Shown piece by piece: positions 19,630 through 64,000 of a stretch of 64,000 nt of DNA. This DNA comes from Methanococcoides sp. AM1 (GTDB lineage Archaea; Halobacteriota; Methanosarcinia; Methanosarcinales; Methanosarcinaceae), in NCBI RefSeq assembly GCF_900774055.1, contig NZ_CAAGSW010000005.1, positions 1 to 64,000 on the forward strand, given 5' to 3'. Position 1 is the first letter of the stretch. Each line of letters starts with the position of its first letter. The translations under genes and the position numbers were made by a program. Under the pieces are notes generated by a model, which was given only the letters and a program-made list of their open reading frames with translations, made no database searches and was not told the origin of the DNA.

Positions 19630-19995
19630 TTATTTATGATGGTTTAGAAGGCATTTAAGTTCCTCAACCGACTTCACAGACGGAGGAGATGAAACCAGTA
19701 TCGCATTTACCGTTGCATCTTGTTGATTCTTGATACCCACCACTGTATCAGGTGGCACCAGCATTGCAGTTCCACTGCCTATGGTTACGGTTTCATTTCC
19801 TGATTCCACCACCAGCTCACCACTCAAGCAATATATCAAACCTTCTGTAGAGTGGGCATGAGGAGATACCTCAAGACCTGCTGGGATCGCAAGATGCATA
19901 CAAAGCAATCTCTTACCAAATAACAATGGCTTCATCACACCCTCGGGTGTCTCCAAACCTTCAGTATCGTCTATTTTTTGTATTTCTATTTCCAT
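19630..19995 (-). CDS. single-domain cupin protein
   Basis: 121 aa with one cupin-2 barrel. The metal-site motif PHAHSTEGLIYCLSGEL (about 46-62) supplies two His and a Glu, and a second motif region lies around 75-85 (VPPDTVVGI). A single metal ion, often Fe, Mn or Ni, would be expected. It is the last gene of the minus-strand cluster, four bases after a methyltransferase. It may sense or modify the small molecule handled by the cluster, but no substrate can be read from sequence. Confidence 0.82.
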   Translation of the reverse strand: MEIEIQKIDDTEGLETPEGVMKPLLFGKRLLCMHLAIPAGLEVSPHAHSTEGLIYCLSGELVVESGNETVTIGSGTAMLVPPDTVVGIKNQQDATVNAILVSSPPSVKSVEELKCLLNHHK

Positions 19996-19999
19996 TCTA

Positions 20000-21022
20000 T
20001 TATACCTCCTTATCTCCTATAATGAGCATAGATGGGCTTGTTTGAGAGGATATGTCCAGAACACGGACATTTGAAAATTGTGCGTTCTCTAATAGTTCGA
20101 CACATTCGTTTTCAGTGTAAATATGGTGCATATCCCCTCGCAAGGATAGATTAAGATCAAAGAGGACGGATGTGGGAGGAGCAGTTCGTTCATCATTTAA
20201 GATCCAGTGCTTGAACACGATCGAACCTTTATTGTTCAGCGCGTTGTATACTTTCTTCAAAACACCTGCAAGCACATCCGACTTTCGATAGAAGACATCA
20301 GATGAGAAGACGATGTCATACCCGCTTCCAATCTCATCTTCAAAGAAGTTTCCTCCAATGATTCCGACCTTGTCGTTCATATCATACCTTTCGATGAACT
20401 CTTTTGTAACCCCTGTCACATGTGGCAGATCAAATACTGTGGCTTCAAGTTCCGGGTTCATCTCAGCAAATGCTATTGCATAGAGCCCATGCTCGCCGCC
20501 GAGATCAAGAAGCGTTCTTGCTTTCTCGAATTCAGGAAGGGTCGACACTTCTTTCATGGTTTGATGAAGGCTTCCCTTCATTGAACCTTCAGCCATTGCC
20601 AGAATAAAGCTGGAATCGAAGACATCTTCAAACCTTCCTTTATTCGCTTCCGGCACGTCCCCTTTCAGGATAGAGTTCAACATCGACCGTTTGTCAGAGT
20701 TCCTTCCGGAAAATCTGAGTAGATTACCTTGATAAAACGGACTATCCTTCACAAGAAAAGTCGAGGCAAGCTTTGTGTTCATATATTTATCATTCTCTTT
20801 TGAGAGGAACTGTAATGCTACCAGAGTATTCAGGAACTTCCCAGTCAGGGATGCATCAGTACAGATCTCTGAGGATATTTGTTCTGCGGTCTTTGACTCT
20901 TCGAGCATATCGAAGAGATCAAAATCAAGGGCTATCAGTAAGATGTGGAACGCTTCACAGCCTTTTACAATCCTATCCAGCGGTTCTGAACTGATTTCTG
21001 GAATGGTATCCAATACTTTCAT
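20000..21022 (-). CDS. O-methyltransferase family 2 (SAM-dependent)
   Basis: 340 aa. A winged-helix dimerisation domain (about 10-95) is followed by a Rossmann SAM domain with LLDLGGEHGLYAIAFAE (about 170-186), then DLPHV and a GNFFEDEIG region. This is the acetylserotonin/caffeate-type fold that methylates hydroxyl groups of small molecules. It abuts the PPOx-like gene (no gap) and precedes the cupin by four bases, so it is in the same operon. The substrate is unknown; plant-type names should not be copied to it. Confidence 0.85.
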   Translation of the reverse strand: MKVLDTIPEISSEPLDRIVKGCEAFHILLIALDFDLFDMLEESKTAEQISSEICTDASLTGKFLNTLVALQFLSKENDKYMNTKLASTFLVKDSPFYQGNLLRFSGRNSDKRSMLNSILKGDVPEANKGRFEDVFDSSFILAMAEGSMKGSLHQTMKEVSTLPEFEKARTLLDLGGEHGLYAIAFAEMNPELEATVFDLPHVTGVTKEFIERYDMNDKVGIIGGNFFEDEIGSGYDIVFSSDVFYRKSDVLAGVLKKVYNALNNKGSIVFKHWILNDERTAPPTSVLFDLNLSLRGDMHHIYTENECVELLENAQFSNVRVLDISSQTSPSMLIIGDKEV

Positions 21023-21442
21023 TTACTTTTCCCCTTTTTTGTGGCGAACGGTTGAGTATATCTCCTCCACCTCCACCAGAACCGCGGATTTCACTTTCAT
21101 GTCTGAATGGCGCGAATGTCTTTTTCGCAGCTCTTCCACTATTTCTTCTGCCTTTTCAAAGATCTCACCGCTTGTGAAAATCTGTGCTTGCCCTTTGAGT
21201 TGGTATGCACTTGGTGATTCCTTTCCCAGCGCCTCGACAGCAATCGCTACATGGGGATTCTCAAGCAGGTTCTTTTTTGTCTTGTCAAATAGAACATCTA
21301 CAATCAGTAACTCGCTGTCACTTATCGTACGTATGGCACCTATTGGAACTACATTCGGTCTACCATCATTGGATGTAGTTGCCAGATGAACCACATTCTC
21401 GTTTATCATTTCCTGTATTTCTTCACTCATTTTCATGCTCAT
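21023..21442 (-). CDS. FMN-binding pyridoxamine-phosphate-oxidase-like protein
   Basis: About 139 aa of the PNPOx-like split-barrel fold (NVVHLATTSNDGRPNVVPIG, NPHVAIAVEA, YQLKGQAQIF). Such proteins bind FMN, F420 or haem. There is no evidence it makes pyridoxal phosphate. Three ATGs compete at 21445, 21442 and 21436. AAGGAG lies four bases before 21442, which is chosen. It sits between two methyltransferase genes in the cluster, perhaps supplying a reductive step (inference). Confidence 0.82.
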   Translation of the reverse strand: MSMKMSEEIQEMINENVVHLATTSNDGRPNVVPIGAIRTISDSELLIVDVLFDKTKKNLLENPHVAIAVEALGKESPSAYQLKGQAQIFTSGEIFEKAEEIVEELRKRHSRHSDMKVKSAVLVEVEEIYSTVRHKKGEK

Positions 21443-21494
21443 CATTCTCCTTCAAACGTCACAAAATTATTAGCAGGGTTTCTACAGATCTAAA

Positions 21495-22340
21495 TCACGG
21501 TTTATTTTTTTCCCACCACATTTTCACACGGTTAGTCGAACCTCGCATAATCAGGGAATCATTGTCTTTTTCAAGGACTTCTTCCAGGTAATCCCTGAGA
21601 ACTGATTCCTGACGGTCTGTAGTAATCTTGTAGTGCGACCTGGAATATTCAACAGCCTCGTCCACAGAGTGAAAACGGTTGACATGCTCAAGCGGGAAGA
21701 CCTCTGCATGGGGATAGATGCCCATCTGGTAGAGCACATTGTAAAGCACATCGCATTTTGGCCCTGGATGATAATCACTATCATGGAGGGATGGCCAGAG
21801 TGTCCTGTAATGGATGTCCCATGAGGGTTCCCCGGCAAACCAGTATAAGTAGACATATCTCGAGGAGGCATCTATCATCTTCTGGATCGATTCCCTGATA
21901 TCGGGCATACCAAGAGAAAACGAAGCTATGACCACATCGTAAGGGGCTTCAAGATCCACTTCAACATTCACATCCTCCCACCGCTTCTGTACACAGGTGA
22001 TATTGTCGGTTTCATACTCCGATATATTGTCCTGCAGCACATTCATCATGCCTTCTGAGGGCTCAACAGCAGTAACGTGGACCACTCTTTCTGCAAGTGG
22101 AACTGCCAGAGTCCCAGGTCCAGCACCAACATCGAGCACCTTTGAGTCTGGAGAAATAGAAATGCCACTTATGGTCTTTTCAATCCGTTCTCCACCATTC
22201 GCCAAGGACATCTCCCAGAAGCGCTTTGCATTCTTCTTTTCCTCCCATATCGAGGCGCAATCTACAACACAGTGCGACTCTACTTGTTTTAGCGTCTGGT
22301 TTTTCCAGATTTCATTCCAATCAATTGTATTTTCATTCAT
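21495..22340 (-). CDS. class I SAM methyltransferase, copy B of a duplicated pair
   Basis: 281 aa. The SAM motif VLDVGAGPGTLAVPLAE is at about 68-84, with VTAVEPSEGM following. It is strongly similar to the gene at 23760-24605, differing mainly in the first 95 residues. The C-terminal part (DSDYHPGPKCDVLYNVLYQM) has a conserved Cys/His-rich stretch that may define the substrate site. ATG with GAGG seven bases upstream. A hairpin and possible promoter lie between it and the binding-protein gene, so it may head a second transcript. Confidence 0.88.
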   Translation of the reverse strand: MNENTIDWNEIWKNQTLKQVESHCVVDCASIWEEKKNAKRFWEMSLANGGERIEKTISGISISPDSKVLDVGAGPGTLAVPLAERVVHVTAVEPSEGMMNVLQDNISEYETDNITCVQKRWEDVNVEVDLEAPYDVVIASFSLGMPDIRESIQKMIDASSRYVYLYWFAGEPSWDIHYRTLWPSLHDSDYHPGPKCDVLYNVLYQMGIYPHAEVFPLEHVNRFHSVDEAVEYSRSHYKITTDRQESVLRDYLEEVLEKDNDSLIMRGSTNRVKMWWEKNKP

Positions 22341-22424
22341 AGTTAGTCCTCATATCGTTCCGACGCCTTACTACGTGCACATGCAGAGATAAAACTCGTC
22401 AGTGAAAACGTCTCATGATTCGTA

Positions 22425-22473
22425 TATTTAAAAAAATGTTAAAATCCATATCAATTGAAATTTGATATGGATT
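22425..22473 (-). terminator. hairpin plus U-tract between binding protein and methyltransferase
   Basis: A perfect 12-bp stem (AATCCATATCAA / TTGATATGGATT, 7-nt loop, 22443-22473) begins 8 bases after the binding-protein stop on the minus strand. It is followed by TTTTAACATTTTTTT. It looks like an intrinsic-style terminator or a 3'-end stabiliser inside the cluster. TTTAAATATA just beyond could serve as a new TATA box. Confidence 0.65.
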
Positions 22474-22480
22474 CGAGAAT

Positions 22481-23713
22481 TTAATTGCAGGTAGGGCATT
22501 CCTCGAGAGTCCAGTCCATCCACTGGGCTGAGCGCAACTCCTTTGCGGTGTCGAGGTCCACACCATAGACATTCTGATAGAAGTCCAGCAGCCACTCCGC
22601 GAGGTTAATGTCCTCAAAACGCTCTGGATACGTTCCCTTTGCGATCACCATTATATCGATCGGGTATTCAAGCCGTTTTGCACAGTTGCATGGTGACCAT
22701 GGTAATGCTACAACCCGTCTGTTCTTCACGGCATCCAGTTCCTGCAGATTCTGGTAGTAAGGTGCCTCATAAAGTTCAAGTGGTGGGTGGTATCCAAATG
22801 CAGTGCAGAGCACGATCACATCAGGGTTCAATGCTAATATATGCTCGCCGCTCACTATCTTGAAGTTCCCAGCCTCCTGAAAACCATTCCTCGCATGAAC
22901 GATATCCTGGATAAAGAACGACTCAATCGTATCAAGACCAAAGACCTGACCTGCACCACCAGCACTCCGTGCTTTAGGCGATGCTCCAAAAATCAGCACA
23001 TCAGGTTTATCTTCATCAGGAATATCTTTTGTCCGTTCATTTATAAGGTTGACCTGACTTTCAAGGTATTCTACGAGTTTGGTAGCTTCGGCCTCTTTGT
23101 CAAATACCTGGCCAATGATGCGAATTTCATCCGAGATGTTGGACACATCCGGTTCATCATAGCAACTTGATCCGTATAAAACGATCAGCGGTATTCCAAG
23201 AGATTCGATCGTTTCGATACTTTTTTGTGTGCCTTCATCATCAATGAACCGCAGTGAACAGCTACCCAGGCGGACGATAACCACATCAGGCTCAAGGCTT
23301 GCAAGTGTTTCGTAGTTCACCGCAGAACCGGACTTTGCAAAACAAGGGAGATCCATGATCCCGGGGTTCAGGTAGGTGACCGGATTCATTCCATCCTCAT
23401 AGTTAAATGTCTCCCCACCGACGGTCTCGTAGCTGTAGTTAAAGTTTCGCTGCAAACAGCTGGATCCTATGCCCACAAGAGTATCCTGGACACCGATTGT
23501 AGTCATAACCCCTTCAATCATTCCATCGCTTATCGTGGCTACCTTTTCAATATTTGTTGGTATCTGCACAGCAACTCCGCGACTATCGACAACTGTTCGA
23601 TACTGTTCGTGGGATACCGTGGCATCATCAGTCGCATTTCCCATACATCCTGCACTCAGCAGGATGCTCAACAGTACAGTAACAAGAACACAATACTGTA
23701 ATTTAGATTTCAT
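22481..23713 (-). CDS. ABC importer binding lipoprotein (FepB/BtuF type), Cys-rich
   Basis: 410 aa from ATG 23713, which follows GAGG. The frame extends upstream, but this start opens a classic lipoprotein signal (MKSKLQYC..., lipobox LSAGC). The mature part is a periplasmic-binding-protein type III fold like BtuF/FepB/FecB (VVDSRGVAVQIP, EPDVVIVRLG, LNPDVIVLC, RRVVALPW). It has about nine Cys besides the lipid Cys, including PCNC and a C-terminal CPTC, which is unusual. It should deliver a metal chelate (siderophore, corrinoid or other) to the FecCD permease upstream. The substrate is not determinable. Confidence 0.88.
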   Translation of the reverse strand: MKSKLQYCVLVTVLLSILLSAGCMGNATDDATVSHEQYRTVVDSRGVAVQIPTNIEKVATISDGMIEGVMTTIGVQDTLVGIGSSCLQRNFNYSYETVGGETFNYEDGMNPVTYLNPGIMDLPCFAKSGSAVNYETLASLEPDVVIVRLGSCSLRFIDDEGTQKSIETIESLGIPLIVLYGSSCYDEPDVSNISDEIRIIGQVFDKEAEATKLVEYLESQVNLINERTKDIPDEDKPDVLIFGASPKARSAGGAGQVFGLDTIESFFIQDIVHARNGFQEAGNFKIVSGEHILALNPDVIVLCTAFGYHPPLELYEAPYYQNLQELDAVKNRRVVALPWSPCNCAKRLEYPIDIMVIAKGTYPERFEDINLAEWLLDFYQNVYGVDLDTAKELRSAQWMDWTLEECPTCN

Positions 23714-23759
23714 TTTTATATCCTCTTTTTTGATATAATCTATAAATAAATTTGAGTGA

Positions 23760-24605
23760 TCACTCACCTGTCTGTTTTTCCCACCACATCTTCACAGAAG
23801 TATATGATCCATTCATGATCAGGGAATCATTATCCTTTTCAAGAACAGCTTCAAGGTAATCCCTAAGAACTGATTCCTGATGGTCTGTAGTGATATTGTA
23901 GAAGGATCTGAAATGTTCAACAGCCTCTTCAATAGACTGAAAACGGTTGAAATGATTAAGCGGGAAGACCTGCATATGGGGGTAGATGCCCATCTGGTAG
24001 AGCACATTGTAGATCACATCGCAGTTTGGCCCTGGATGATAATCACTCTCATGAAGGGCAGGCCAGAGTGCCTTATAATGGGTTCCCCAGGAAGGTTCCC
24101 CGGCAAACCAGAATAAGTAGACATATCTCGAAGAGGCGTCTGTCATCTTCTTGATCGATTCCCTGATATCAGGCATACCTAAGGAGTAAGAGGCTATGAC
24201 CACATCATAGGGGCCTTCAAGATCCTCTTCAACATTCACATCCTCCCACCGCTTCTGAACACAGGTGATATTGTCGGCCTCATACTCTGCGATGTTGTCC
24301 TGCAGCACATTCACCATGCCCTCGGAGGGTTCTACTGCAGTTACATGAGTTACCAGAGAGGACATCGGAATCGTAAGCGTTCCCGGCCCGGCACCGATAT
24401 CCAGTATTCGGGAATCCGGTGTGAGCGCAAGTCCCTCGATGGTCTTCTGGTTTTGTTCTTTGTTATTCTGCACCGTCTTCCAATATTGCGTTGCCCGTTC
24501 CTTATTATCCCATACTCGGGCACACTCAACGGCACACTTCGATTCAATGTTCTTTAGCATCTGGTTTTTCCAGACTTCATTCCAATCAATCGTATTTTCA
24601 TCCAT
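23760..24605 (-). CDS. class I SAM methyltransferase, copy A of a duplicated pair
   Basis: 281 aa with ILDIGAGPGTLTIPM as SAM motif I and VTAVEPSEGM. It lies between the importer ATPase and the binding-protein gene. The start is placed at 24605 (MDENTIDWNE) by analogy with copy B, although the frame reaches 24614. Its last ~190 residues are nearly the same as copy B. Embedding inside the transporter genes argues that methylation is part of handling the imported compound or of making the chelator (inference). Confidence 0.87.
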   Translation of the reverse strand: MDENTIDWNEVWKNQMLKNIESKCAVECARVWDNKERATQYWKTVQNNKEQNQKTIEGLALTPDSRILDIGAGPGTLTIPMSSLVTHVTAVEPSEGMVNVLQDNIAEYEADNITCVQKRWEDVNVEEDLEGPYDVVIASYSLGMPDIRESIKKMTDASSRYVYLFWFAGEPSWGTHYKALWPALHESDYHPGPNCDVIYNVLYQMGIYPHMQVFPLNHFNRFQSIEEAVEHFRSFYNITTDHQESVLRDYLEAVLEKDNDSLIMNGSYTSVKMWWEKQTGE

Positions 24606-24618
24606 GTAATTCATCCGT

Positions 24619-25443
24619 TTATTCTACATCTCTCTGAAGCGCCGGCATCTGTCTTGACGTCCCGTCTTTCTCTTTAACTGCCACATCACGAGGCAATACC
24701 ATATTAGTCCCATCCAGACTCCTGACTGTGCACATACCCCGGTAGATTTCATCGAGGACTGGCTCTGTGATCACATGGTAGGGAGGACCCTGACCCATGA
24801 TCCCATTTTCATTCATAACCACCACGTCGTCGCAGAACCACGAAACATGATTCGGGTCGTGACTGCACGCCAGGATGGTAATTCCCTGATTAGCCACCTT
24901 GCGCAGTAGCTTCCAGATTTTTAACTGGTTGCTAAAATCAAGAGCAGAGGTAGGTTCGTCCAGGAATATCAGTTTTGTCTCCTGGGCTATTGCCCGTGCT
25001 ATCAACACCATCTGGCGCTGTCCGCCTGACAACTGGTTGTAAGGTTGTTCTGCAAGATGGGAGATATCCAGCAGTTCAAGTGCGTCCAGTGCTTTTTCTT
25101 TATCCGCACGTTTGACGCCAAAAAAACCTCCAAGATGTGGTGTTCTCCCCATCAATACAACTTCCTTTACCAGATATGGAAATGGAGGCTTATGCTCCTG
25201 GGGAACATACGCAACTACTTTGGCCATATCCTCGATCCTGCACTCATTCATGTCCATACCATCCATGATCACGGAACCCTTATGGAACTTTAAAAATTTC
25301 ATGCAGCATTTGAAAAGTGTGGTCTTTCCGCATCCGTTTGGACCAAATAACCCGCAGAGCTGTCCTTCTTCAACATCAAAAGAGATGTCTTTAAGAATCT
25401 GAGTCGATCCATAGTTAAAATGAATATCTTTTACCTGTAGCAT
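24619..25443 (-). CDS. ABC importer ATP-binding protein (FecE/BtuD type)
   Basis: About 274 aa. Walker A GPNGCGKTT, Q-loop VPQEHKPP, signature LSGGQRQM, Walker B LIFLDEP, and H-loop ACSHD are all present. The frame extends to 25491, but ATG 25443 (MLQVKDIHF) begins the family N terminus and sits just after the permease stop. It energises import together with the upstream FecCD permease. The C-terminal ~30 residues extend past the usual domain. Confidence 0.93.
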   Translation of the reverse strand: MLQVKDIHFNYGSTQILKDISFDVEEGQLCGLFGPNGCGKTTLFKCCMKFLKFHKGSVIMDGMDMNECRIEDMAKVVAYVPQEHKPPFPYLVKEVVLMGRTPHLGGFFGVKRADKEKALDALELLDISHLAEQPYNQLSGGQRQMVLIARAIAQETKLIFLDEPTSALDFSNQLKIWKLLRKVANQGITILACSHDPNHVSWFCDDVVVMNENGIMGQGPPYHVITEPVLDEIYRGMCTVRSLDGTNMVLPRDVAVKEKDGTSRQMPALQRDVE

Positions 25444-25448
25444 GAGAA

Positions 25449-26537
25449 TCACCCAAGTAACGATCGTCCTTTGTTTCTCAAAAGATAGCAAAGATATGGT
25501 GCACCCACAATTGATGTAATAATCCCGACTGGAATCTCGGAAGTCGTGAGCGTCCGTGCCAGTGTATCACAGACGATAAGATAGATCCCGCCAAGCATTG
25601 CCGCAGAAGGTATCACAAATCTGTGATCGGGTCCAAGGATCATTCGCGTTGCGTGGGGCATCATAAGACCAACCCATGCGATAATCCCAACAGTTGAAAC
25701 CGCAACCGCTGTGACAAGTGTTGCAAGTGCGACCACGATCATCTTGGATTTCTCCGGGTTAATACCCAGTGCCCGGGCTTCTTCATCCCCCATTGAGAGA
25801 ATATTCAGTTTCCAGCCATACATCCATAGTACCAAAAAAGAAAGACCCACAATTGGTGCGGTAATGACAACGTCATTCCAGGTGGCATAGTAGAACCCGC
25901 CCATCAACCAGAACACGATCTCACGTAATGAGGAATCATTAGCCGTATATTTTAAGAGGGAGACCAGTGCTGAAAAAATAGAACCAATGATGACACCTCC
26001 AAGTATGAGAGTGATGATCGGGGTCTGACCTCGCGTTCTTGCCAGCGTATAGGCAGCCATGACGGCAAGTGAGGCAAAAACAAAGGCCGATATCTGGATA
26101 GAGTGAAGAATATGGGGATAAACAATCCCCAGTGCTGCCCCGAACGCTGCCCCGGAGGAAACACCGAGAATATAGGGCTCGACCAGTGGATTCCTAAAAC
26201 ATCCCTGGAAGACCGCACCAGATGTTGCAAGGGCAGCACCTACTATAATAGCTAACAGGACTCTTGGCAACCGTATGTTCCATATTATGGTATTATGTAG
26301 TTTATTGATACTGGATGCATCCTGAAAGGGACTGAGGTTAGCGATGATAGTTGCATATACATCTACAAAAGAGATATTATATGCACCAAGTACCATGGCG
26401 ATGGCTGCTGCAAGGCCCAGCACCGCAAAAAGAATGCAAAGGATTAAGAACTTTCTCATATCCGAGAAACCCTTTACATCCTGATTTGTTATCCTTTCCA
26501 GGATATTAGTGAGTTTTAATGTTTCAAACATTGTCAA
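25449..26537 (-). CDS. ABC importer permease, FecCD/BtuC family
   Basis: 362 aa with about ten membrane segments. Seen are PRVLLAIIVGAALATSGAVFQ, NPLVEPYILGVSSGAAFGA and the GxxxxxIGLMxPHxxR-like IAWVGLMMPHATRMI, all hallmarks of the iron-siderophore/vitamin B12/cobalt-chelate importer family. ATG 26537, with a second ATG at 26531. It is the first gene of the importer-methyltransferase cluster. The promoter should lie in 26538-26569, but the gap is short and no strong TATA is apparent, so transcription might start farther upstream, in or before the S-layer gene. Confidence 0.92.
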   Translation of the reverse strand: MTMFETLKLTNILERITNQDVKGFSDMRKFLILCILFAVLGLAAAIAMVLGAYNISFVDVYATIIANLSPFQDASSINKLHNTIIWNIRLPRVLLAIIVGAALATSGAVFQGCFRNPLVEPYILGVSSGAAFGAALGIVYPHILHSIQISAFVFASLAVMAAYTLARTRGQTPIITLILGGVIIGSIFSALVSLLKYTANDSSLREIVFWLMGGFYYATWNDVVITAPIVGLSFLVLWMYGWKLNILSMGDEEARALGINPEKSKMIVVALATLVTAVAVSTVGIIAWVGLMMPHATRMILGPDHRFVIPSAAMLGGIYLIVCDTLARTLTTSEIPVGIITSIVGAPYLCYLLRNKGRSLLG

Positions 26538-26569: not shown

Positions 26570-28678
26570 TTACCTTCTTTTGGAAAAGAAAAAGACCGCA
26601 AGAAGTCCTGAGATTGTAGAAAGGAATGTAAATCCTGGCAAATCCTTACCTGGCATTCCTGTTTCATCATCAACTTTTAGTGCAAATTCCTCACTTTCTT
26701 CGACACCAGATTCAGAAAATTCTTCAGAGGTTTCATCCTCTAAAATAGTTGATCCACTTTCTGTATCAGTGGTTTCAGTTTTATCGGGAATCTCTTCAGC
26801 TCCTTCTTGAGAAGCTGTTTTATCTTCAATGGTCAACTTCTTTGCAGGATAGAAAAGATAGCCACCATCTGTACCTTTACCTGCTTTTGATACCTTGAAG
26901 TACCAGTCGTCAGTTAAGTCGATGGTATCACTCATTTCAAGAGTTATTTTCTGATCGTTAGACAATGTGATTTTATCTTCGGCAACTTCGGTACACTCCA
27001 AAGCTCCAAACTCATCATCCACTTCAATGCTTGTAATATCGTCCTTATCAATAAGCCATGTATACTTGAGAATTATAAAACAGTCAGATGTACCTTTGAA
27101 AGCCTCATCCACATAAGTTACAAAGTAAACGGCGTCTTCCTTGCCCGCAAAATCATCTTTTGCGACAAATGTTCTTTCATCATCTTCCCCATTTGTACTC
27201 AGGATCTTAGATTCCAGTTCAACTTCATCCTTGTATAGAGCTAACCACACCTTTCCTCCGTCAAGATCCAGCTGTTTGACCGTAAGGTTGTATCCTTTTC
27301 CAAGCTCCCAGAATTCTCCGACCTTTAATGTCTTTTCTGCACTTCCTTTCTGTTCAAAGACCAGTTTGGTGATCTTCTGAGCATCACCGTCAACTGCCAC
27401 GTATTTTTGGCCAAACCAAGGCATCATGTAATATTTATTGACTGTTGTAGCATCAGTCTTGGTACTTGCCATGTATTTTTTGACGTAGGGATGTGTAGTG
27501 TAGGTAAGTTCCCCCTTGTCCATAACATTGTTAGTAGGAGCTGCACCGATCGCAGGATTTTCTGAATCACTATTTTCATAGCTGAGAGTTTCGGCAGCAC
27601 ATCCAGCTTCATTCATTGAATAGTAAAAGGAGGACCAATTTGTTGCATTCCAGGAAATTTCAGATAAGTTCCCCGTATCAAGTGGTGATCCGCGAATTTC
27701 GTATGTTCCGGGATTGATCAACTTCTTTGCAGGATAGAAAAGATAGCCGCCATCCGTACCTTTACCTGCTGTTGATACCTTGAAGTACCAGTCGTCAGTT
27801 AAGTCGATGGTATCACTCATTTCAAGAGTTATTTTCTGATCGTTAGATAATGTAATTTTGTCTTCGGCAACTTCAGTACACTTCAAAGCTCCAAACTCAT
27901 CGTTTGCTTCAATGCTTGTAATATCGTCCTTATCAATAAGCCATGTATACTTGAGAATTATAAAACAGTCAGATGTACCTTTGAAAGCCTCATCCACATA
28001 AGTTACAAAGTAAACGGCGTCTTCCTTGCCCGCAAAATCATCTTTTGCGACAAATGTTCTTTCATCATCTTCCCCATTTGTACTCAGGATCTTAGATTCC
28101 AGTTCAACTTCATCTTTGTATAGAGCTAACCACACCTTTCCTCCGTCAAGATCCAGCTGTTTGACCGTAAGGTTGTACCCTTTTCCAAGATTCCAGGACT
28201 CTCCGACCTTTAATGTCTTTTTTGCACTTCCTCCCTGTTCAAGGACCAGTTTGGTGATCTTCTGAGCATCACCGTCAACTGCCACGTATTTTTGGCCAAA
28301 CCAAGGCATCATGTAATATTTATTGACCGTTGTAACACCAGTCTTGATACTTGCCATGTATTTTTTGATGTAGGGATGTGTACTGTAGGTAAGTTCTCCC
28401 TTATCCATAACGTTGTTAGTAGGAGATGCACCGATCGCAGGATTTTCTGAATCAGTATTTTCATAACTCAGAGTTTCGGCAACACATCCGGCCTCATTCA
28501 TTGAGTAGTAAAAGGCGGGCCAGTTCGTTGCATTCCAGGAGATTTCAGATGCATCTCCTGTATCAAGTGGTGATCCGCGAATCTCAACTGATGATGCAGA
28601 GCAGACGCCTGCAGCAAGAATAAGTGATATAAATATCAGCAATGTAAGATTTACCTTTTTAGCTAGTTTAGTCTTAAT
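26570..28678 (-). CDS. Methanosarcina-type S-layer protein, two S-layer domains
   Basis: About 703 aa. It has a signal peptide (KTKLAKK then a hydrophobic run ending CSA), two nearly identical ~295-residue S-layer domains (each starting EIRGSPLDTG), an acidic Thr/Ser/Glu tether (about 620-675), and a C-terminal PGF-type membrane anchor ending FFFSKRR. This matches the architecture of the Methanosarcina S-layer protein. The first ATG/TTG-type start in frame is TTG 28642, which would cut off the basic n-region. AGGAGG is eight bases before an in-frame ATT at 28678, giving a complete signal peptide, so ATT is proposed. It should form the cell's outer lattice. Confidence 0.9.
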   Translation of the reverse strand: MKTKLAKKVNLTLLIFISLILAAGVCSASSVEIRGSPLDTGDASEISWNATNWPAFYYSMNEAGCVAETLSYENTDSENPAIGASPTNNVMDKGELTYSTHPYIKKYMASIKTGVTTVNKYYMMPWFGQKYVAVDGDAQKITKLVLEQGGSAKKTLKVGESWNLGKGYNLTVKQLDLDGGKVWLALYKDEVELESKILSTNGEDDERTFVAKDDFAGKEDAVYFVTYVDEAFKGTSDCFIILKYTWLIDKDDITSIEANDEFGALKCTEVAEDKITLSNDQKITLEMSDTIDLTDDWYFKVSTAGKGTDGGYLFYPAKKLINPGTYEIRGSPLDTGNLSEISWNATNWSSFYYSMNEAGCAAETLSYENSDSENPAIGAAPTNNVMDKGELTYTTHPYVKKYMASTKTDATTVNKYYMMPWFGQKYVAVDGDAQKITKLVFEQKGSAEKTLKVGEFWELGKGYNLTVKQLDLDGGKVWLALYKDEVELESKILSTNGEDDERTFVAKDDFAGKEDAVYFVTYVDEAFKGTSDCFIILKYTWLIDKDDITSIEVDDEFGALECTEVAEDKITLSNDQKITLEMSDTIDLTDDWYFKVSKAGKGTDGGYLFYPAKKLTIEDKTASQEGAEEIPDKTETTDTESGSTILEDETSEEFSESGVEESEEFALKVDDETGMPGKDLPGFTFLSTISGLLAVFFFSKRR
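26830..28610 (-). repeat. 885-bp tandem direct repeat inside the S-layer gene
   Basis: The two S-layer domains are repeated at the DNA level with an 885-bp (295-codon) offset. Long blocks, for example around 27010-27250 and 27895-28135, differ by only a few bases, many of them silent. This implies recent duplication or continuing gene conversion. Confidence 0.85.
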
Positions 28679-29043
28679 AGATCAGTCCTCCTTTTTTAAT
28701 AATTATGTCACCATTAATGCCCATTTGTAATAATTATTATAGAAATAATTAGTTTTCGTGTTACTTATTTATTAAAACTTAATACTAAATAGGTATCATA
28801 TATAATTTTGTATTAACGCTGTGACGCTAGAAATTTGTAGAAGGAGTATCAGGCAGCAAATGAAAATAAATTAAAACAGAAAAAATGTTATGAAATTATT
28901 TACAGAAAAGTATGAATTTGCTCCGCATTTCCAATAGGCAAAATCGATTTGTAAAACGAAACACAGTAGATAATCTACACAAATCGTCAAATTAACTTTT
29001 CACTCAAAAAGCAAATAAAAATAGCTTGAAAATAGGTATGGAG

Positions 29044-59376: not shown

Positions 59377-60063
59377 TTACACTTTTTCTATTCTTGTTAT
59401 TATTCCATTCTCCAGATAAGCTATCCTGTTGCATACTTTCCTCAGGACATCAATGTCATGGGATATCAGAAGGTACGAGATGCCCCTTTCCTGCTGAATT
59501 TTCTCCATAATTTTCAACACCTGTGCCTGCACCGAAACATCCAGCATAGAAGTGGGTTCATCAGCCACAATGAACTCCGGATTGATAGAAAGAATGCGAG
59601 CCAGCACAATTCTCTGGATCTCACCACCACTAAGATGTGCAGGATAGCGTTTCAGATGCTCACTTCTCAACCCCACCATATCAAGCAACTCGTCAACCTT
59701 ATCCGAAAGGGAAGAACTGTCATAACAACCGTGAATTTTCATGGGTTCAACAAGGCTATCAAGCGCCTTAAGCCTTGGATTCAAGGAAATTTCCGGATGC
59801 TGGAAGATCATCTGAATCTTTGGACGCACACTTTTTCTCTCTCTACGGCCCATGGTAAGAAAATCATTCCCTTCAAAAAGTATTTCACCCGAATCCGGTT
59901 TTTCCAGACCCACGATACACCTGCCGACCGTTGTCTTACCTGAACCACTACTTCCGAAAAGTCCCAGAGTCTCCCCTTTTTCAACATCAAGATCAAGGCC
60001 ATTAAGTACCCTGTGGCCTTCGAACGTTTTGACAAGATTATTTACAGTCAATAAAGATGACAT
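59377..60063 (-). CDS. nikE: Nik/Dpp ABC importer ATPase 2
   Basis: 228 aa. Walker A GSSGSGKTT, signature LSGGEIQRI, Walker B FIVADEPTSMLD, H-loop ISHDI. It is one of the two ATPases of a nickel/oligopeptide-type importer. Its start overlaps the end of the partner ATPase by 16 bases. Shorter than DppF, lacking the C-terminal peptide-importer extension, which fits NikE better. Confidence 0.85.
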   Translation of the reverse strand: MSSLLTVNNLVKTFEGHRVLNGLDLDVEKGETLGLFGSSGSGKTTVGRCIVGLEKPDSGEILFEGNDFLTMGRRERKSVRPKIQMIFQHPEISLNPRLKALDSLVEPMKIHGCYDSSSLSDKVDELLDMVGLRSEHLKRYPAHLSGGEIQRIVLARILSINPEFIVADEPTSMLDVSVQAQVLKIMEKIQQERGISYLLISHDIDVLRKVCNRIAYLENGIITRIEKV

Positions 60064-60980
60064 TTGACAATCCCTCCATCAATTATTTTGATCTCCGGAT
60101 GGTCAATATGACACCTATCCGAACATGAGCTACACCTTCCGGAAAAAAGACAACCTTCGGGAAGATCGATCCTGCTGGGAGTCTGACCCTCCAGAGGTAC
60201 AAGACCATTGCGTGGCAGGGCATTCAAAAGACCCTTTGTATAGGGATGGGAAGGATTTCGTAATACTTTTGCAGCTGATCCGATCTCCACAATTTCCCCT
60301 GCATACATCACCGCAACTCTGTCACATATCTCCAGCGCAAAATCAAGATCATGAGTAATTACAAGCATGGAACTTCCATGATCGTTCTTCACATGACTGA
60401 AAAGATCGACAGACCCTGCCCTTGAACGTGAATCAAGCCCCTTTGTAGGTTCATCAGCAATGAGAAGTTCAGGGCTATAAGAAAGGCACATCGCTGCCAA
60501 AAGCCTTTGCTTCATGCCTCCTGAAAGTTCATGAGGATAATTTTCAAGGATCCCGGAAGGATCTTTGAGAAACATCTCTTTCATCATCTGGAGTGCTACC
60601 TTTAAACCCTCCTTTTTGTCAATCCCCATAACTTCAAAGACTTCACTTACCTGTATCCTGTTTTTAAGTAAAGGATTTAGGGAACCAGAGGGATTCTGAG
60701 GGATCAACGAAATCTTTTTGCCCCGGATCTGTCTCATCTGGCTGTTACTCCGGGAAAGGACATCTACTCCGCCAAAAAATATGTCCCCTTTCACGGTAGC
60801 ATTGGAAGGAAGCAAACGTAAAATAGCCTGCCCTATAACAGATTTACCTGAACCACTTTCACCTATGATCCCAAAGGTTTCACCTTTTTTTACTTCAAAA
60901 GAAACGTTATTTACCGCTTTTACAGTTCCGTTCTCAGTCACGAAGCCCACACTAAGGTTACTTACATTAAGAATAGCCAT
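60048..60980 (-). CDS. nikD: Nik/Dpp ABC importer ATPase 1
   Basis: 310 aa. Walker A GESGSGKSV, signature LSGGMKQRL, Walker B LLIADEPTKGLD, H-loop ITHDLDFAL. The C-terminal oligopeptide/dipeptide extension with a Cys cluster (CLFSGRCSSCSDRCHIDHP) is the usual 4Fe-4S-like tail of this group. Start and stop overlap with both neighbours, so tight coupling is expected. Confidence 0.87.
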   Translation of the reverse strand: MAILNVSNLSVGFVTENGTVKAVNNVSFEVKKGETFGIIGESGSGKSVIGQAILRLLPSNATVKGDIFFGGVDVLSRSNSQMRQIRGKKISLIPQNPSGSLNPLLKNRIQVSEVFEVMGIDKKEGLKVALQMMKEMFLKDPSGILENYPHELSGGMKQRLLAAMCLSYSPELLIADEPTKGLDSRSRAGSVDLFSHVKNDHGSSMLVITHDLDFALEICDRVAVMYAGEIVEIGSAAKVLRNPSHPYTKGLLNALPRNGLVPLEGQTPSRIDLPEGCLFSGRCSSCSDRCHIDHPEIKIIDGGIVKCHLY

Positions 60981-61879
60981 CAGAAATCATCACCTCTTTC
61001 ATTGGGGTCAAGAATATCCCGCAAGCCTTCACCGATTATACTGAAAATTATAACAACCAGTGTAATTGTAAGGCCCGGGAATATTGTCTGGTAGGGAGAG
61101 GTCCGCATAAACTCCTTCCCTGCACTTAGCATGGCACCCCATTCAGGGATATCTGTAGGGAGACCTATACCAAGAAAATTAAGAGCTGCAATGGAAAGAA
61201 TTACATGACCTATATCTATTGTTGCAAGGACAAAGACCGTTGCAATGGAGTTTGGAATCAGGTGCCTTCTCATGATATGGAAGTCACCCGCACCAATGGT
61301 CTTTGCCGATAATACGTATTCGTTCTCTTTTATAGAAAGCACCTGCCCCCGCATAAGACGGGCGTATTTGGCCCAGTGGACTACAGACAAAGCAAGGATG
61401 AGGTTAGATACGCTGCTTCCCAGAAAACCCATTATAGCCAGAGCAAAAATTATGCCGGGGAACGATAGGAACACATCTATCAGGCGGGAAAGGCCCTCAT
61501 CGACAAAACCCCCATAATATCCGGAAATGCAGCCAATACCAATTCCTATGATAAGAGAGATGGCGGTTACTCCGGCTGAGATGGAAAGGGAAGTAGTCGT
61601 TCCTGCAACCAGCCTGTCAAAAATATCCCTGCCAAGGTAATCTGTCCCCAGTAGATGTTGCTGTGATGGGGCAAGGTTCTTATTTTTAAGGTCAATGGCG
61701 TTGGGATCTGATGAAGATAACAAGGGATTAAAAACCGCAACCATCACTAATGCCACAAGCAATACCATGGCCAGGGTCATGTCTTTTCTTCGGAGGATTT
61801 TTCCTGTAATGCCGCCTTTTTCCTTAAACTGCAACCAAAAATCCCTTTTTTGTGAAAAATTAAAAACCAATTGGATCAC
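60980..61879 (-). CDS. nikC: Nik/Dpp ABC importer permease 2
   Basis: 299 aa with about six hydrophobic helices. DYLGRDIFDRLVAGTTTSL and the EAA loop SAKTIGAGDFHIMRRHLIPN are typical of DppC/NikC. It starts at GTG 61879, overlapping the nikB stop by four bases (GTGA), a translational-coupling arrangement. Confidence 0.88.
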   Translation of the reverse strand: MIQLVFNFSQKRDFWLQFKEKGGITGKILRRKDMTLAMVLLVALVMVAVFNPLLSSSDPNAIDLKNKNLAPSQQHLLGTDYLGRDIFDRLVAGTTTSLSISAGVTAISLIIGIGIGCISGYYGGFVDEGLSRLIDVFLSFPGIIFALAIMGFLGSSVSNLILALSVVHWAKYARLMRGQVLSIKENEYVLSAKTIGAGDFHIMRRHLIPNSIATVFVLATIDIGHVILSIAALNFLGIGLPTDIPEWGAMLSAGKEFMRTSPYQTIFPGLTITLVVIIFSIIGEGLRDILDPNERGDDF

Positions 61880-62820
61880 CTATACTTTATTCTCGGGTCA
61901 AGGTAGACATAAATCAGGTCAACCACGAAATTTACAACAAGGAACAGGAACACTATTACTATGATACATGCCTGCACCACCGGCAGATCACGTGCAAATA
62001 TAGAGTCCACAAGCAAACTGCCGATTCCGGGCCATGCAAACACTTTTTCTATTACTACGGACCCACCTAGCATTGACCCCATCTGGAAACCAAGTACTGT
62101 AACCACCGGCAAGATGGAATTCTTTAGAGCATGCCTGCTTATGATCTTGTTTACAGGCAATCCTTTTGCAGTTGCAAACTTTATGTAATCCTCTCCGAGT
62201 GTTTCAAGCATGCTTGTCCTTGTCACCCTCATTATGGATGCAAGGGAGTGAATGGAGAGGGCAAGTGAGGGCAGTATCAGGTTTTCAATACTTCCATATC
62301 CTGCAACGGGTACTAACTTCAGGTAAACCGAAAATAACAGGATCAATATCAAACCAATCCAAAACCCGGGCATTGAAACTCCAAAAAGTGTAAGAAAACG
62401 CAGCAGGTGATCTGCGAACCTGTTTTCCCGCAATGCCGCATATATACCCAGTGAAACGCCCCCAATAACTGCAATCGTCATGCTTGATAATGCAAGAATT
62501 ATGGTCGCAGGAAGCCGTAGCATTAAGAGGTGTAGCACGGGTTTGTGGTAGACAAAAGATGTCCCCAGGTCACCTTCAAGAAAACCGCTTTTTATCCATT
62601 CAATGAACTGAATGTAGAGAGGGGCATTGAGATTGTAACGATCTGAGATCTGTGCCAGCTGTTCTTCGGTAGCAGATTCCTCAAGACCTATGAACGTGTG
62701 TTTCAATATCAGTTCAGACGTCCCGCCGGGTATTACGTTCATGAGGAAAAATGTCAACGCAATTACTGCAAAAAGGGTAATGAGCACAAAAGCCATTCTT
62801 TTGAGAACATATCTATACAT
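61876..62820 (-). CDS. nikB: Nik/Dpp ABC importer permease 1
   Basis: 314 aa, six helices. LGTSFVYHKPVLHLLMLRLPAT and the EAA loop FATAKGLPVNKIISRHALKNS fit DppB/NikB. Follows the binding-protein gene by 66 bases. Forms the channel with permease 2. Confidence 0.88.
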   Translation of the reverse strand: MYRYVLKRMAFVLITLFAVIALTFFLMNVIPGGTSELILKHTFIGLEESATEEQLAQISDRYNLNAPLYIQFIEWIKSGFLEGDLGTSFVYHKPVLHLLMLRLPATIILALSSMTIAVIGGVSLGIYAALRENRFADHLLRFLTLFGVSMPGFWIGLILILLFSVYLKLVPVAGYGSIENLILPSLALSIHSLASIMRVTRTSMLETLGEDYIKFATAKGLPVNKIISRHALKNSILPVVTVLGFQMGSMLGGSVVIEKVFAWPGIGSLLVDSIFARDLPVVQACIIVIVFLFLVVNFVVDLIYVYLDPRIKYR

Positions 62821-62886
62821 TATGACACATCCATCCCAATATAAAAAGGAAGGAGAAGGCTTATACCCTCTCCTGACGGAGGACTT

Positions 62887-64000
62887 TCATTCTTCAATAT
62901 ACATCCCTGCATTGATACTGTAATCGTGTGCGGTAGGGTCGAAGACATAGCCTTTCACCGAATCTTTCTTAACTATGGCACAGCCGTAGTAAGCGATCAG
63001 GATCTTTGGTTGCTCTTCATACACGATCTCTTCAACTTCGTTGAATTTCTGGTACCTCAGGTCACGGTCTTTAATGGTCTTTGCTTCTTCCACCAGTGCA
63101 TCAACTTCCGGATTTGAGTATCCGGGAGCGTTGTCAGGTCCATCGGTCGTGTACCAGTTACCCATGACATATTCCGGATCAGGCACCATTGCAATATTAT
63201 AGGCTGCAAGGACGAGGTCCCAGTCACCATTTTCCCTTTTATCAGATATTGCACCCCATTCAAGTACCTGGGATGAAACAGAGATTCCTGCTTCCTTGAG
63301 CTGGGCAGCAATTGCTTCAGACATAGGAGGAAGTCCGGGTCTTGCAGCATAGGTTAGCAGCTCAAGTTCAAGGGGCTGCCCGTTCTTGTCGCGAATACCG
63401 TCTCCGTCTGTATCTGTCCAGCCGGCTTGTGTAAGCAGCTCATCTGCTTTCTCAAGGTTCTGTTCATATGGCTTCAGGTCCTTGTTAGCCCAGCTCATTG
63501 AAGGTAAGAAAGGACCGGCAGCCGGGGCACCTACATTGTAAAGCACGTGTTCTACAATATCTTCTCTGTTTATTGCATACGATATTGCCTGCCTTACCCT
63601 TACATCAGCCAGAGCTTCATCTTCAAGGTTGGCATCCATCTTGTAAACCCGGGGAGTGGAATATTTTTCCACACTGAGCCCCTCTATGGCATCTATGCGG
63701 TCTGTTTCACTGTATGGCACATCAACTGTAAAATCGAGTTCCCCATTTTCGATAGCCATCGCCCTTGTGTTGGGATCAGGCATACCTTTTAGCACCAGCT
63801 TTTCAAGACCGACATCTCCGCCCCACCAGTATTCATTTCTTACAACTGTAAGTACGCGTGTTTGCTCATTGAAAGATTCAAAGGAATAAGGGCCGGTTCC
63901 CACGGGTTTGACAAAATTGCCATTCTCATCTATCGAGCTTTCACTAATGATCGAGGTATCGGGATAATGAAGAATACCTGCAAGGATGGGGTTTATTTCT
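62887..64000 (-). CDS. nikA: Nik/Dpp ABC importer solute-binding protein (5' end beyond window)
   Basis: Open to the window edge, at least 370 residues of the C-terminal part. SBP family 5: GTGPYSFESFN, RVRQAISYAINREDIVEHVL, and GYSNPEVDALVEEA. The signal peptide is outside the window. Among family 5, peptide, nickel and metallophore binders cannot be told apart by eye. Nickel is favoured because methanogens need it for F430, hydrogenase and CODH, and because LarA is present. Gene order A-B-C-D-E matches nik. Confidence 0.8.
   Translation of the reverse strand, partial: EINPILAGILHYPDTSIISESSIDENGNFVKPVGTGPYSFESFNEQTRVLTVVRNEYWWGGDVGLEKLVLKGMPDPNTRAMAIENGELDFTVDVPYSETDRIDAIEGLSVEKYSTPRVYKMDANLEDEALADVRVRQAISYAINREDIVEHVLYNVGAPAAGPFLPSMSWANKDLKPYEQNLEKADELLTQAGWTDTDGDGIRDKNGQPLELELLTYAARPGLPPMSEAIAAQLKEAGISVSSQVLEWGAISDKRENGDWDLVLAAYNIAMVPDPEYVMGNWYTTDGPDNAPGYSNPEVDALVEEAKTIKDRDLRYQKFNEVEEIVYEEQPKILIAYYGCAIVKKDSVKGYVFDPTAHDYSINAGMYIEE

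Follow-up and report, generated by a model that had tools for sequence, protein, structure and literature searches.

The FecCD-type nickel importers described from Helicobacter are NiuBDE and CeuE with FecDE, and control in H. pylori is exerted by NikR. Methanogens require large amounts of nickel for F430, carbon monoxide dehydrogenase/acetyl-CoA synthase (CODH/ACS) and hydrogenases. Little is known of nickel uptake by these organisms (PMC10617489); a 2009 survey of archaeal nickel/cobalt importers listed only Nik/CbiMNQO, NikABCDE and NiCoT, and predicted that NikR controls nickel transporters (PMC2667541). Here, we analysed a 64,000-nucleotide stretch of Methanococcoides sp. AM1 (contig NZ_CAAGSW010000005.1, positions 1 to 64,000; hereafter the window), in which a minus-strand gene run encodes a FecCD-type ATP-binding cassette (ABC) importer interleaved with methyltransferases. 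With a probability of about 0.6, we read this locus as a NikR-controlled importer of a nickel chelate, with the methyltransferases as dedicated accessories that probably act on the ligand. Judged from the DNA and its relatives, the imported metal would be nickel, which we propose with fair confidence because of a NikR-type operator, the linkage to NikABCDE importers and the CXC-containing CooC-type ATPases of related clusters.

The permease (25449-26462, minus strand, as for all features below; FecCD, PF01032, E = 3e-93), the ATPase (24619-25446; ABC_tran, PF00005, E = 8e-33) and the Cys-rich substrate-binding lipoprotein (22481-23719; Peripla_BP_2, PF01497, E = 1e-17) all pass their Pfam gathering scores and together constitute a FecCD-type ABC importer. 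Their probable starts lie slightly off the longest open reading frames (ORFs), at 26462 (ATG; the ORF can be extended to a TTG at 26537), 25446 and 23719, respectively. These proteins are of the same classes as those of the Helicobacter systems, for which the substrate is nickel; in the window, regulation and neighbourhood point to the same metal. In contrast, the Helicobacter systems have no methyltransferase, S-layer protein or CooC-like partner. The binding protein contains 11 Cys, with a lipobox-like Cys at C25, and is ∼17% identical to CeuE. Its structural model (predicted local distance difference test, pLDDT, 90) matches MolA, TM0189, YiuA and H. pylori CeuE, which has been solved with Ni and Ni-His, and the CeuE structures 4inp and 4ls3 are among the matches. 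The modelled fold thus allows nickel as the metal, without being proof of it. The NCBIfam models nearest to the permease and ATPase are those of BtuCDF, yet both proteins score below the equivalog cut-offs (304.5 against 461 bits and 209.9 against 537 bits), as does the ATPase with all of its nearest models (corrinoid, FecE and heme ATPases). A search of the locus for a cobalamin riboswitch found none, and a cobalamin or heme importer was rejected on these two grounds.

Methyltransferase A (23760-24614; Methyltransf_25) lies between the ATPase and the binding lipoprotein, so that a methyltransferase does stand inside the transporter genes, as the first-pass annotation had described. It belongs to a duplicated family, since methyltransferase B (21495-22340; Methyltransf_25-type) is 73% identical to it. 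The same annotation had drawn one cluster of eight minus-strand genes, and all eight, with their coordinates and domains, were recovered by an ORF check and Pfam; the single unit probably does not hold. Instead, the run falls into two modules: permease, ATPase, methyltransferase A and binding lipoprotein, then methyltransferase B, a split-barrel PNPOx-like flavoprotein (21023-21445; PNPOx_N, PF01243, E = 5e-16), an O-methyltransferase (20000-21022; Methyltransf_2 plus Dimerisation domain) and a small cupin (19630-19995; Cupin_2, PF07883, E = 3e-10). Gaps within the run are 0 to 49 bp, except for the one separating the binding protein from methyltransferase B, which measures 140 bp. The modules are probably separate transcription units, because this 140-bp gap holds a T-rich stretch and a terminator-like hairpin (22440-22475; 13-bp stem, −14.4 kcal/mol, z −4.8, U-rich tail), and because in the closest contig, from Methanococcoides seepicolus (L005; methyltransferase A 90% identical), the second module is placed behind a second importer rather than that of the first module. 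The L005 contig stops after the PNPOx-like gene; a different contig of that genome carries the O-methyltransferase and cupin (91–92% identical).

The upstream limit of the cluster also had to be moved, as the first unit begins at an S-layer-duplication-domain gene ahead of the permease (26570-28642; 690 amino acids as called; PF07752, E = 2e-133; TIGR01567), which precedes FecCD in L005 too. It encodes a two-domain surface protein of S-layer type with a signal peptide in frame, and no ATG, GTG or TTG was found ahead of that signal peptide. The probable start is an ATT at 28676-28678, a few bases 3′ of GGAGG, giving the N-terminus (M)KTKLAKKVNLTLLIFISLILAAGVCSA; the ATT codon is also present in L005 and L111.

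A NikR-type operator, GTATTA-N16-TAACAC, was found with zero mismatches at 28758-28785, 115 bp upstream of the called S-layer gene start. GTATTA/GTATGA-N16-TAACAC is common to the upstream regions of orthologous operons in related methanogens and has the geometry of the E. coli NikR operator, GTATGA-N16-TCATAC; the same geometry applies to NikR control of NikABCDE. The genome encodes a NikR (PF08753, E = 2e-32) that aligns over its full length with the solved P. horikoshii NikR and matches it at the His and Cys ligands. From this regulator and the promoter motif, we infer that the importer operon belongs to the NikR regulon. The degenerate palindrome GTRTKA-N16-TMAYAC has three sites in the 2.48-Mb genome: the window operator, a site 22 bp ahead of the first gene of the sole NikA-like operon, and one within a coding sequence. 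The last (C4:208423) was rejected as an operator because of this location, in what by eye seems to be a formylmethanofuran dehydrogenase operon, and because it is conserved in the genus. In four congeners, the palindrome stands ahead of NikM/CbiM-type genes, which were recognised there from the appearance of their sequences and in this genome from PF01891 hits to the related loci. A NikABCDE-type operon is found at the window end (59377-64000, to 65307 on contig C5; operon span 59377-64341). Its first gene, L146:6497-7258, encodes a further class I methyltransferase and has a NikR-type box 22 bp upstream, shortly past the end of the window.

A matrix trained solely on NikMN and NikABCDE promoter sites was scanned over 1.33 Mb of fetched loci. 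Its ten best matches were all in methyltransferase or importer promoters (0.7 expected), and the window operator was recovered. Additional matches, not among the original set, were found at a FecCD promoter in a more distant genome (L094), at lone methyltransferases (L118 and L061) and at a NikA promoter (L171).

The association of methyltransferase and importer extends well beyond this locus. Matches to the methyltransferase A/B family occur in 279 of 393 sampled genomes, a count that includes weak matches and generic methyltransferases, and the family is multicopy both in Methanosarcinales and in further orders of the phylum. A neighbourhood co-occurrence check, of the kind proposed in the first-pass annotation, covered the related genomes for which FecCD and NikA-like genes had been mapped as well. 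There, 28 of 52 copies have a gene of one or the other type no more than 6 kb away, compared with 1.4 expected by chance, and the arrangement is therefore beyond chance. Three settings recur. The first is that of the window (FecCD–ATPase–methyltransferase–binding protein), in which other orders have multiple binding proteins and methyltransferases; the second reads S-layer–methyltransferase–CooC-like ATPase–secreted 204-amino-acid protein–binding protein–FecCD–ATPase; and in the third, a methyltransferase adjoins a NikABCDE-type operon. Methyltransferases stand next to core binding proteins in 19 of 35 cases. The window cluster differs from NikABCDE in having Peripla_BP_2 and FecCD in place of SBP_bac_5 and Opp-type permeases, but the NikABCDE importers of relatives are accompanied by the same methyltransferase and O-methyltransferase families.

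An alignment of 49 family members has 16 invariant columns, and nine Trp positions are conserved in 90% or more of the aligned members, a pattern that may point to an aromatic substrate pocket. The structural model of methyltransferase A (pLDDT 92) matches YcgJ, TmtA, histamine methyltransferase and BioC with template modelling scores of about 0.5–0.6; as these are generic small-molecule methyltransferases, the substrate is not readable from the structure search. NCBIfam gave weak matches of the methyltransferases to CbiT, CpaM and BchU (for CpaM, NF043040, 47.6 and 42.3 bits against a cut-off of 180).

Distant homologues (24–30% identity) are found in operons of Paracoccus (L122), Proteus (L124) and E. 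coli (L121), where an uncharacterised TonB/FecCD system combines a TonB receptor, binding protein, FecCD permease and ATPase with the methyltransferase. These proteobacterial operons share with the window an importer paired with this family, and differ from it in their outer-membrane receptor and in a ModD-type gene, which is present in E. coli and Proteus and absent from Paracoccus. The E. coli operon (L121:3090-9516) reads binding protein, FecCD, ATPase, methyltransferase, ModD, TonB receptor; its methyltransferase has the motif NVLYQMGIY in common with the family, and the gene is present in 2094 of 5426 complete genomes. A scan of this operon for NikR and Fur boxes gave none above chance.

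The clusters of relatives provide a further link to nickel. Their CooC-like proteins contain a CXC motif in 14/14 cases and match CooC1 best in the PDB, over their length (E = 9e-18). The CXC motif of CooC1 binds nickel. Unlike CooC, the nickel ATPase of CO dehydrogenase maturation, these genes adjoin importers rather than CO dehydrogenase genes; the window's own cluster has none. A gene for a conserved secreted protein of ∼204 amino acids (L005:8711-9322; homologues in L070, L074, L106, L109, L111, L113 and L115) separates the CooC-like or methyltransferase gene from that of the binding protein; the secreted protein ends in an anchor-like segment and has no match in Pfam. At L176:6825-13797, a 1268-amino-acid magnesium/cobalt-chelatase-like (CobN/BchH) protein is encoded beside binding protein–methyltransferase–CooC-like–Band 7–FecCD genes.

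Relatives of the second module were also examined. Its PNPOx, O-methyltransferase and cupin genes are also found as a unit in a different family of this order (68–76% identity; L168 and L169), with PNPOx homologues of 70–76% identity paired with the O-methyltransferase. In L168 this unit occurs together with an A/B-family methyltransferase and FecCD genes, and in L169 both PNPOx and O-methyltransferase are in duplicate. Cupin homologues (69–92% identical) follow an O-methyltransferase or methyltransferase in L168, L169 and L174. Within the window's own family, a count that leaves out the L168 and L169 units, 7/7 good O-methyltransferase homologues lie within 6 kb of a NikA-like gene, in NikABCDE clusters, and in L170–L172 a CooC or FecCD importer, NikABCDE and the O-methyltransferase are joined in a single cluster. 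NifH/D/K-like genes are found near the PNPOx–O-methyltransferase–cupin unit at L168:1-3025 and L169:81-3680; except for one NifH-like match, they score below typical nitrogenase or CfbCD model cut-offs.

For this nickel-chelate importer, we suggest the following course of events, in which the metal, the direction of transport and the surface role of the S-layer protein are what we infer from the above. When nickel is scarce, NikR would leave the operator and the operon would be expressed. The S-layer-domain protein may then serve as a surface capture or passage site, the Cys-rich lipoprotein would bind the nickel complex, and FecCD and the ATPase would carry the complex into the cytoplasm. There, methyltransferase A, together with methyltransferase B, the O-methyltransferase and the flavoprotein of the second module, may modify the ligand, most likely by methylating its donor atoms, so that nickel would be lost from it. 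The freed nickel could go to MCR/F430 and CODH/ACS, in several relatives via the co-encoded CooC-type CXC ATPase. That the ligand is the methyl acceptor, and that methylation frees the metal, is hypothetical. We favour action on an imported ligand because the methyltransferases accompany two unrelated importer families, often adjoin binding proteins and occur without scaffold-forming partners. A broader proposal, that nickel uptake by methanogens includes a methylation step, with the ligand alkylated and nickel released (handled by CooC-type ATPases in some), and that a homologous step exists in the proteobacterial TonB/FecCD operons, is made tentatively, and we consider it possible rather than probable.

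Several observations weigh against a nickel importer with ligand-directed methyltransferases. The three palindrome sites in the genome compare with five for a reversed-pattern control, i.e. there is no enrichment, and the operator argument therefore rests on where the sites are and not on their number. Likewise, the matrix test is not wholly independent, as its training sites came from a search whose pattern had itself been prompted by these operons, and the ten best matches include several orthologous promoters from a single genus. A NikR-like box was not seen ahead of the second module in the window. Resemblances of the binding protein extend to molybdate and iron proteins, and NikA-like and CbiM-type importers are not all nickel-specific. 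No evidence in the analysis points to a methyl acceptor. Finally, 24 of the 52 methyltransferase copies stand more than 6 kb from any importer, some of them with a NikR-like box (L061 and L118), although homologues were not usually away from importers, the finding that would have told against the first-pass annotation.

That annotation had offered, without naming a metal, either import of a chelate coupled to its methylation or synthesis of a methylated metallophore. The coupling is borne out by the methanogen neighbourhoods and the proteobacterial TonB/FecCD operons; of the two uses of the methyl group, we tentatively prefer chelate processing to metallophore synthesis. In the latter case, the methyltransferases, O-methyltransferase, flavoprotein and cupin would make a methylated nickel binder that is exported and re-imported via FecCD (or Nik). 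Clustered tailoring-type enzymes that travel as a unit fit this explanation. NikA-type importers can carry metallophore complexes, e.g. staphylopine (CntA), and the NikA-type importers of relatives match the CntA model. However, domain searches of the cluster found no scaffold-forming enzyme (nicotianamine-synthase-like, opine dehydrogenase or non-ribosomal peptide synthetase) and no exporter, and neither enzyme of the Cnt nicotianamine/opine pathway is among its genes in Pfam or NCBIfam. A MATE gene beside lone methyltransferase copies is convergent and not co-transcribed, and many importers in relatives carry the methyltransferase as their only tailoring enzyme. We regard metallophore biosynthesis as unlikely, while giving it more weight than the explanations below.

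Import of iron, molybdate/tungstate or cobalt instead of nickel is improbable. MolA (molybdate) and iron-siderophore proteins are among the closest solved relatives of the binding protein, and the ModD family, present in the E. coli and Proteus operons, is named for molybdenum transport loci; against this stand the operator shared by NikM/CbiM-type and NikABCDE-type importers, the full-length NikR and the CXC CooC-type partners. The evidence against cobalt is incomplete, as CbiM-type and Nik-type importers can carry this metal.

The least probable alternative is that a BtuC-like importer takes up a nickel tetrapyrrole (F430 or one of its precursors), which the methyltransferases and flavoprotein then modify: the BtuC and corrinoid ATPase resemblances, the CbiT, CpaM and BchU matches and the CobN/BchH-like and NifHDK-like genes near relatives' clusters favour it, but every model match is far below its equivalog cut-off, the cobalamin riboswitch is missing from the locus, importers of NikABCDE type, whose cargo is small chelates, likewise have this methyltransferase family and the O-methyltransferase beside them, and the window cluster has neither chelatase nor nitrogenase-like genes. 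An anti-phage role was rejected, as PADLOC gave just a generic methyltransferase-domain match to mad2.

No description of a methyltransferase association with nickel importers was found in the literature searched, which left most subscription journals outside. To the archaeal importers, the locus adds a FecCD-type system that has a NikR operator and is linked to S-layer and CooC-type partners, and it offers a role that can be tested for a widespread, as yet unassigned methyltransferase family. More than one-third of complete E. coli genomes contain an uncharacterised importer operon that includes a distant member of this family. Together, the arrangement of importer and methyltransferase across many methanogens and, distantly, bacteria suggests that methyl transfer may be an undescribed step in nickel acquisition.

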